Assembly (NCBI RefSeq): GCF_031656215.1
Contig: NZ_CP134228.1
Coordinates: 3,553,001-3,617,000 of the forward strand
DNA: 64,000 nucleotides
Direction of reading: 5' to 3'
From: Mesorhizobium koreense
GTDB taxonomy: Bacteria; Pseudomonadota; Alphaproteobacteria; Rhizobiales; Rhizobiaceae
Below the pieces are notes generated by a model, which saw only the letters and a list, made by a program, of their open reading frames with translations, had not been told where the DNA came from and did no database searches. Below are positions 12,079 through 13,269 of the stretch, one piece after another. The translations under genes and the position numbers were made by a program. Each line of letters begins with the position of its first letter. The stretch's first letter is position 1.

Positions 12079-12291
12079 TGTCGGATCGATCCTTGACGAA
12101 GGCGGTCAGGGGGTAAACCGCATCCCTTGCCGATGCAAGATGCCGGATGCCCTTTCGCTCGCGCCCGTACCGTCGCTTCGCGGCTGGTCCGCCAAGGGGG
12201 GCGGCATGGGCTGCGACGCCCGGTCGCGCGTTGTTGGGTGTGCGCGTTTGCCTGAAACTCATTGTTATCGTGAACATCCTTTCCAGTCCTG

Positions 12292-12471
12292 TGCCCCTTC
12301 GCACCCCCCTCTGTCCTGCCGGACATCTCCCCTTCAAGGGGGGAGATCAGACAACCGGAATGCCTGCTCTCTTTCTGCAACTTCGGAGATTTGGCGAAGG
12401 CCGCAATGACAGCCGATCTCCCCCCTTGAAGGGGAGATGTCCGGCAGGACAGAGAGGGGTGCGAAGGGGCA
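12292..12471. repeat. Long inverted repeat element with 57-bp arms (MITE-like)
   Basis: The left arm (12292-12348) and right arm (12415-12471) are reverse complements over 57 bases with a single mismatch, separated by a 66-bp spacer. Each arm also contains a small internal palindrome (CTCCCCTTCAAGGGGGGAG). The arms carry the string TGTCCTGCCGGACATCTCCCC, which I recall as a frequent intergenic motif in mesorhizobia. No transposase is encoded. It could be a non-autonomous mobile element or a very strong transcription-blocking hairpin. Confidence 0.85.
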
Positions 12472-12902
12472 GTGTACTATCCGGCTTTCTCATCGCACAC
12501 GCTTCATCCTCGCCACGCCCAGTTTCCACCGTCTGGCCATTGTTCGATCGGGAAGCGGGCGCGGGGCCTTGCCTCTCAATCAAATGTACTGGCGCAGCAC
12601 AGCCGCGCCCGCCGGCGTTCTTGCCTCATCCTTGGGCGGCATTCCCGCCGCCGGCCGGATCGAGGCCCGGGCCTGGGGGTTCATCACCCAGCGGCGTTAC
12701 CGTAACGCCACCGGCCCGGCACCGCCGCCCCCCACGCTCATCCGGTTCATGACCCGTGTTCCCATGAAGGCGGTGACGGCAATTATGGGGGAGTCTCGAA
12801 GGGCGTGGAGAAAGATGAGCGAGAAAAATCTCGGAATGCCGGAAAGCAACGGGATGGAAAAGTGGCGTCCGCCAATCTATCCACGTTTCGGTGGCCTCTC
12901 CA

Positions 12903-13101
12903 CCTTCGTCATCCTCGGGCAAGTGGAGCGAAGCGGAATGCGACCGAGGATCCATGCCGGGGAAAAGACAGCAACGCGGCAGAGGCGCAGAACAAAGCGC
13001 GTGCCGCTAACCGCCGGCTATGCCCGCGATGCTCCGGCATGGATTCTTGGCTCGCACCCTTCGCTTCGCTCGGGCTTGGCCAAGGATGACGAAGTGGAAG
13101 G
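12903..13101. repeat. Imperfect inverted repeat element
   Basis: The left arm (about 12903-12960) runs from CCTTCGTCATCCTCGGGCAAG to GAGGATCCATGCCGG. The right arm (about 13034-13101) is its degenerate reverse complement, from CCGGCATGGATTCTTGG to CCAAGGATGACGAAGTGG. The arms differ by several substitutions and small gaps. This looks like an older dispersed intergenic repeat. No open frame with coding character spans it. Confidence 0.6.
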
Positions 13102-13269
13102 AGGCCACCGCGCTGCCGCTCCGTTACGGAACGGGTCCCGGGATGACGGTGCGATGATGTCGCGCCACCCATCGAGAAATTATCACGTCTGCTCTGTACA
13201 GGCTTATCCTCCCTGTCGCAAAATAGCGGCATCGGGCATACGACCGAAGGCCAACCGGGGATAACCGAC

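Follow-up and report, generated by a model that had tools for sequence, protein, structure and literature searches.

A dispersed double-palindrome repeat of the RIME/Bru-RS kind between serS and a universal stress protein gene of Mesorhizobium koreense

The window analysed here is a stretch of 64,000 nucleotides of the Mesorhizobium koreense genome. Within it, the divergent genes serS (seryl-tRNA synthetase, minus strand) and usp (universal stress protein, plus strand) are separated by a long inverted repeat at 12292-12471. The sequence-only reading had described 57-bp arms with one mismatch around a 66-bp spacer, and a recount agrees in every number: the arms occupy 12292-12348 and 12415-12471, the mismatch falls at 12308 and the 66-base spacer spans 12349-12414. 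A looser extension carries the arms to 12285-12348 and 12415-12478 at 94% complementarity. An inverted-repeat scan of the window (14-base exact seed, gap of at most 150) lists this structure as its sole match, with a score of 53 compared to a top score of 14 among 20 control windows shuffled in 2-base blocks. Folded as RNA, the two strands reach -145 and -154.9 kcal/mol, with z values of -13.9 and -17.5 against shuffles. Nothing coding-like was found in the inverted repeat, and the sole ORF called at the element (12437-13264) has no Pfam match; this and all other gene calls come from a home-made dicodon caller trained on the window rather than from a published tool. In Rfam, nothing exceeded the gathering score, the only entries being mir-6131 (44.6 bits, cut-off 66) and H19_2 (13.9 bits, cut-off 50). 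The mir-6131 identity was rejected for its score under the cut-off, and it looks like a match made through hairpin shape. Elsewhere in the window, two CGTC-like REP sequences in inverted orientation, CGTCATCCTCGGGC... and ...GGCCAAGGATGACG, can be seen by eye at 12904-13094.

The inverted repeat is composed of smaller parts. A 160-bp core at 12302-12461 is common to copies with unrelated flanks, and 33 copies are in register over it. The outer 10 bases on the left (12292-12301) and right (12462-12471) are complementary to each other and form the least conserved portion of the element across copies. Each arm consists of two small stacked hairpins, A and B. Hairpin A, at 12312-12325 in arm 1 and 12438-12451 in arm 2, has a 5-bp stem with a TGCC loop and reads TGTCC-TGCC-GGACA in the window copy. 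Hairpin B, at 12325-12347 and 12416-12438, reads ATCTCCCC...GGGGAGAT. The arm 2 hairpins were placed from the sequence, hairpin B of arm 1 from the sequence and copy alignments, and hairpin A of arm 1 from the sequence together with compensatory changes across 252 arms that are described below.

With the 180-base element as query, the 5.04-Mb genome was found to contain 33 full-length copies together with a half copy (L034) and some short pieces, so that the dispersed repeat proposed by the sequence-only reading is borne out. The remaining 32 full copies are 73-89% identical to the window copy. An arm pattern search allowing at most two mismatches gave 33 forward and 34 reverse matches in the same genome and none for the reversed control. 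In copies with other flanks the core measures 158-164 bp, with one of 179 bp, and some of the elements compared are short variants with a length of 115-120 bp. A spacer word, CTGCAA/TTGCAG, is more frequent than in shuffles yet present in a minority of copies (31/121), while GANTC sites occur in 14 of 126 elements and are not a feature of the element.

Around the core lies a larger dispersed repeat, at 12151-12622 in the window, defined with rough ends from blast matches of joined flanks and an alignment. By the assignment made here, 13 of the 33 copies, the window copy among them, sit at one point of this outer repeat. One 201-base flank has 38 matches listed in the genome, and the flank of another copy gives outer-repeat matches of more than 400 bp at 92-95% identity. 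These observations raise the question of whether there is an independent element at all, or merely a piece of the outer repeat that spread along with it. The 13 copies at one outer-repeat point would fit such a piece; however, 20 copies have other flanks (with a partial outer-repeat match nearby at L016), which refutes it as a full explanation, and outer repeats lacking a full core also exist (L035, L039, L041, L045 and L055, with differing junction leftovers). There is thus hardly any chance that the outer repeat accounts for the element. L035 retains a shortened core, and therefore the core has been deleted at least there. In L004, L009 and L025 the outer repeat runs the other way round with respect to the spacer, which could be explained by inversion between the arms and also by insertion in either direction.

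The copies are intergenic in 31 of 33 cases: 23 lie between tandem genes, five between divergent and three between convergent genes, one is unresolved and one (L024) is within a called ORF. That ORF has a high coding score and may be an interrupted gene or a wrong call. Outside the outer repeat, 15 of 20 copies are within 58 bp of each called neighbour, including the L029 copy, which overlaps a gene call by 36 bp. Such a setting invites a reading in which the element is transcribed between co-transcribed genes and kept for an RNA role, be it termination, mRNA stabilisation or a double-strand RNase cut. The tandem arrangement of the genes around 14 of those 15 copies, the very stable RNA folds and the compensatory hairpins are all in its favour, and PMC2873474 reports REP elements and transcriptionally active repeats in S. 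meliloti. On the other hand, no terminator-like site was found within the element, and runs of four T occur past the ends of 8/126 elements compared to 10/126 further out; the window copy itself is between divergent genes, spacer orientation does not follow gene direction (6 same and 10 opposite among the 16 copies that lie between tandem genes and away from the outer repeat), and sites in the congener G003 are empty. On balance an RNA role is unlikely to be what maintains the element. For the window copy, nested in the outer repeat, a specific role towards serS or the usp gene is improbable. Intrinsic termination is not supported, since a T run after the stem-loop is wanting, and the earlier remark that it is too long for a normal terminator agrees with its 33 dispersed copies.

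What is conserved among copies was examined in 126 elements comprising 252 arms: 33 elements from the genome of the window (G000), 20 from its congener G001, 26 from G143, nine from G052 and a mixed set of 38 that was hand-picked from listed arm pairs of family genomes. The G001 loci L263 and L264 are fragments and gave no full element for the set. All counts from these sets, including those for agreement between arms, are uncorrected for common descent among the copies. Pair 22-31 of hairpin A is T-A in 147 arms, C-G in 57, G-C in 43, C-A in three and T-G in two, and is hence Watson-Crick in 247 of 252. Pair 24-29 is C-G in 226 arms, T-A in 25 and T-G in one (251/252 Watson-Crick). In a first set of 91 elements, the hairpin A type differs between the two arms in 25; 45 of the 50 arms in these elements are self-complementary, and 21 of the 25 elements have a long stem with at least one break among six positions. 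Since hairpin A changes in a compensatory manner within an arm while the arms of one copy may differ, the small hairpin, judged from these substitutions, is maintained more than the 57-bp stem. The sequence-only reading had suggested selection for structure from the near-identity of the arms; that suggestion holds for the small hairpins inside each arm and not for the 57-bp stem as the seat of the evidence.

The two arms are nonetheless not fully independent of each other. Hairpin A types agree between arms in 7/26 elements of G143 (7.5 expected from shuffles within the set), 6/9 of G052 (4.8), 26/33 of G000 (20.7), 19/20 of G001 (17.1) and 21/38 of the mixed set (13.8), which makes the arms independent in G143, whereas in three of the remaining sets they agree more often than expected by chance. 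The loop of hairpin B agrees between arms in 25/26 elements of G143 (19.6 expected), 26/31 of G000 (18.7), 12/16 of G001 (6.0) and 10/35 of the mixed set (5.1); the 7/7 of G052 (7.0) is uninformative. Since the letter in the loop goes together with an outer one, loop agreement may reflect subfamilies as well as pairing. Agreement above shuffles, seen for hairpin A in G000, G001 and the mixed set and for the hairpin B loop, indicates that the arms are also tied to each other by pairing or by concerted change. A four-way-junction fold, prompted by the covariation, was rejected as the stronger fold: by energy, the long stem wins in 116/116 elements evaluated. On extruded or single-stranded DNA the four-way junction is a possibility.

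Beyond M. koreense, the arm pattern with at most one mismatch is present in 163 of 297 family genomes, which represent 71 of the 109 genera. A reversed control gave one match in each of 9/297 family genomes, so lone arm matches may be due to chance. In a sample of the order, the exact pattern was found in 7/10 family genomes and in 1/239 others, there as a single match. Full pattern copies number 131 in G143 and 112 in G052, and copy number swings strongly within genera, with counts of 0/0 in G124 versus 30/32 in G023, and of 0/0 in G061 versus 39/37 in G148. Plasmids carry the element in 153 records, of which 65 are from Sinorhizobium and 53 from Rhizobium. The named plasmids and loci suggest that the family is Rhizobiaceae as GTDB defines it. 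On two Shinella plasmids (H64 and H65), a match to the short variant lies beneath an annotated glycosyltransferase gene.

Sixteen sites were compared with three congeners, the draft G002 (85% complete) being counted only where it matched; the sequences themselves were read at all sites but L015, L022, L030, L032, L033 and those that are occupied. G001 carries the element at eight of the 16 sites (L014, L015, L018, L020, L022, L023, L026 and L028) and remnants at the L012 and L021 sites. At the L029 and L013 sites it has other palindromic repeats instead (L275 and L287, by eye); it has no element at L031, longer gaps at L032 and L033, and no match for L030. In G003, no full element was found at the 15 sites where both flanks could be located; a half element is present at the L022 site, and traces at the L013 and L023 sites. 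Locus L268, set against the L018 site, has a gap of 7, and core remnants were seen at L035, L269, L271 and L278. At L278, the L021 site of G001, additional repeat sequence, CGTC-like in parts, comes after the remnant. Where the core is missing, differences extend into the adjacent flank, so gain and loss are left unpolarised at the sites compared. Because the copies are 73-89% identical and 8/16 sites are shared with a congener, the recent origin that had been proposed finds no support.

At the serS locus itself, the closest of the named relatives found is the Hyphomicrobiales MAG L059, whose serS is 88% identical to that of the window. Its homology stops at window position 12140, immediately ahead of the repeat block, and it has no comparable block beyond that point; 12140 is likely a rearrangement point. 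The exact arm pattern was absent from all 80 serS loci searched. A unique element conserved here as a terminator had been considered as the outcome that would overturn a mobile element, and both the 33 copies and the missing block in L059 point away from it.

Turning to how the copies spread, the sequence-only reading proposed a non-autonomous mobile element and looked to target-site duplications as a check. Among 113 copies, there was no excess of direct repeats of at least 3 bases, although old duplications may have decayed; some 2-base offsets come out slightly above the 50 controls for each, which is to be expected with 5408 tests. Nor was a palindromic target found: in the 20 copies that lie outside the outer repeat, the two flanks are no more complementary to each other than mismatched pairs. 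A classical MITE, in which a DDE transposon has been reduced by deletion and the arms are its terminal inverted repeats, would account for long inverted ends, dispersal and the lack of coding capacity. It is made very improbable by the missing target duplications, by the independent evolution of each arm as a self-complementary hairpin and by the loci fetched, among which no full-length transposon with such ends was found. Similarly poor prospects attend a strict REPIN, in which a RAYT (Y1 tyrosine transposase) moves a doublet of REP units. While the element matches REPINs in its inverted hairpin doublets, intergenic location, high copy number and lack of target duplication, no Y1 match was found in its own genome or in three congeners. 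Y1 occurs in 5/30 arm-rich compared to 3/30 arm-free family genomes and is absent from G143 with its 131 copies, and none of 13 Y1 loci has an arm. Neither the distribution of Y1 nor its loci thus support a RAYT link. The proposal of a non-autonomous mobile element therefore stands in part: dispersal speaks for it, no target duplication or transposase-bearing version of the element was seen, and mobility is likely.

The unit that moves would be the pair of arms, which nearly always occur together at a fixed spacing; in 326 kb of G143, 52 of the 55 arms have a partner. From the dispersal, the copy-number swings within genera and the plasmid copies, we infer spread by copying. The small hairpins are the best candidate for a recognition feature because self-complementarity is kept separately in each arm. 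The preferred reading, with a probability of about 0.75, is that the element is a protein-less, non-autonomous interspersed repeat of the family, resembling RIME, Bru-RS and REPINs, in which paired two-hairpin units around a spacer are copied in trans. The copying would be carried out by an enzyme that probably recognises the small hairpins as a cruciform or as single-stranded DNA; copies would afterwards be inherited, and lost through palindrome-type deletions.

By its architecture, with RIME1 and Bru-RS compared by description only, the element is a dispersed double-palindrome intergenic repeat of the RIME/Bru-RS kind. The Rhizobium-specific intergenic mosaic elements (RIME) are said to go back to Osteras et al., 1995; RIME1 reportedly has 108 bp with two palindromes and is said to have been described near pckA. 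The Brucella palindromic repeats Bru-RS1 and Bru-RS2 reportedly go back to Halling and Bricker, 1994. Again by description only, RIME and the element share an intergenic, dispersed, rhizobial distribution and a mosaic of large palindromes, and the element also has variants of 115-120 bp; the window copy differs in its 160-bp core. None of 30 pckA loci of family genomes has an arm (another long palindrome is present at one, L193). The literature searched did not contain a 15-base arm string. Bru-RS1 and Bru-RS2 are two related palindromes, 103 and 106 bp in length, that are dispersed between genes (PMC10800456); a family of 118 bp is described in PMC2267715, and Bru-RS1 serves as a target of IS711 (PMC3163539). 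Judged from such descriptions, the element is likewise a related pair of dispersed intergenic palindromes but is longer. With the REPIN/BIME of gammaproteobacteria it shares a design of two small palindromic units that face each other across a spacer, as well as intergenic location and high copy number, whereas it has two hairpins per unit and no association with RAYT genes. The alphaproteobacterial CGTC-tagged REPs, mostly head-to-head dimers and, in PMC3733652, said to be without a dedicated transposase, are short units with stems of 8-9 bp and a CGTC end, a form that the arms, by eye, do not have. Further literature on the RIME, Bru-RS and REPIN/BIME kinds includes PMC2573895, PMC2245857, PMC1273637, PMC2817692, PMC3687685 and PMC10459465.

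A striking palindrome is thereby placed in an abundant repeat class of known general kind, and the class gains a testable anatomy in which the conserved object would be a small self-complementary hairpin in each arm. A bolder and more doubtful proposal, tentatively made, is that the element is a REPIN-type orphan with four hairpins, two to an arm, present in more than 100 copies in some family members without a Y1 transposase, that might be copied by an unrecognised enzyme reading the small hairpins, with different repeat families succeeding each other in the same intergenic gaps, as at two G001 sites. Genera in which copy number swings strongly and RAYT genes are lacking offer a natural place to seek the mobiliser of alphaproteobacterial palindromic repeats. 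One further arrangement was observed at L034, where two arms stand tail-to-tail at about 1510-1620 of the locus, one of them with a different self-complementary hairpin A.
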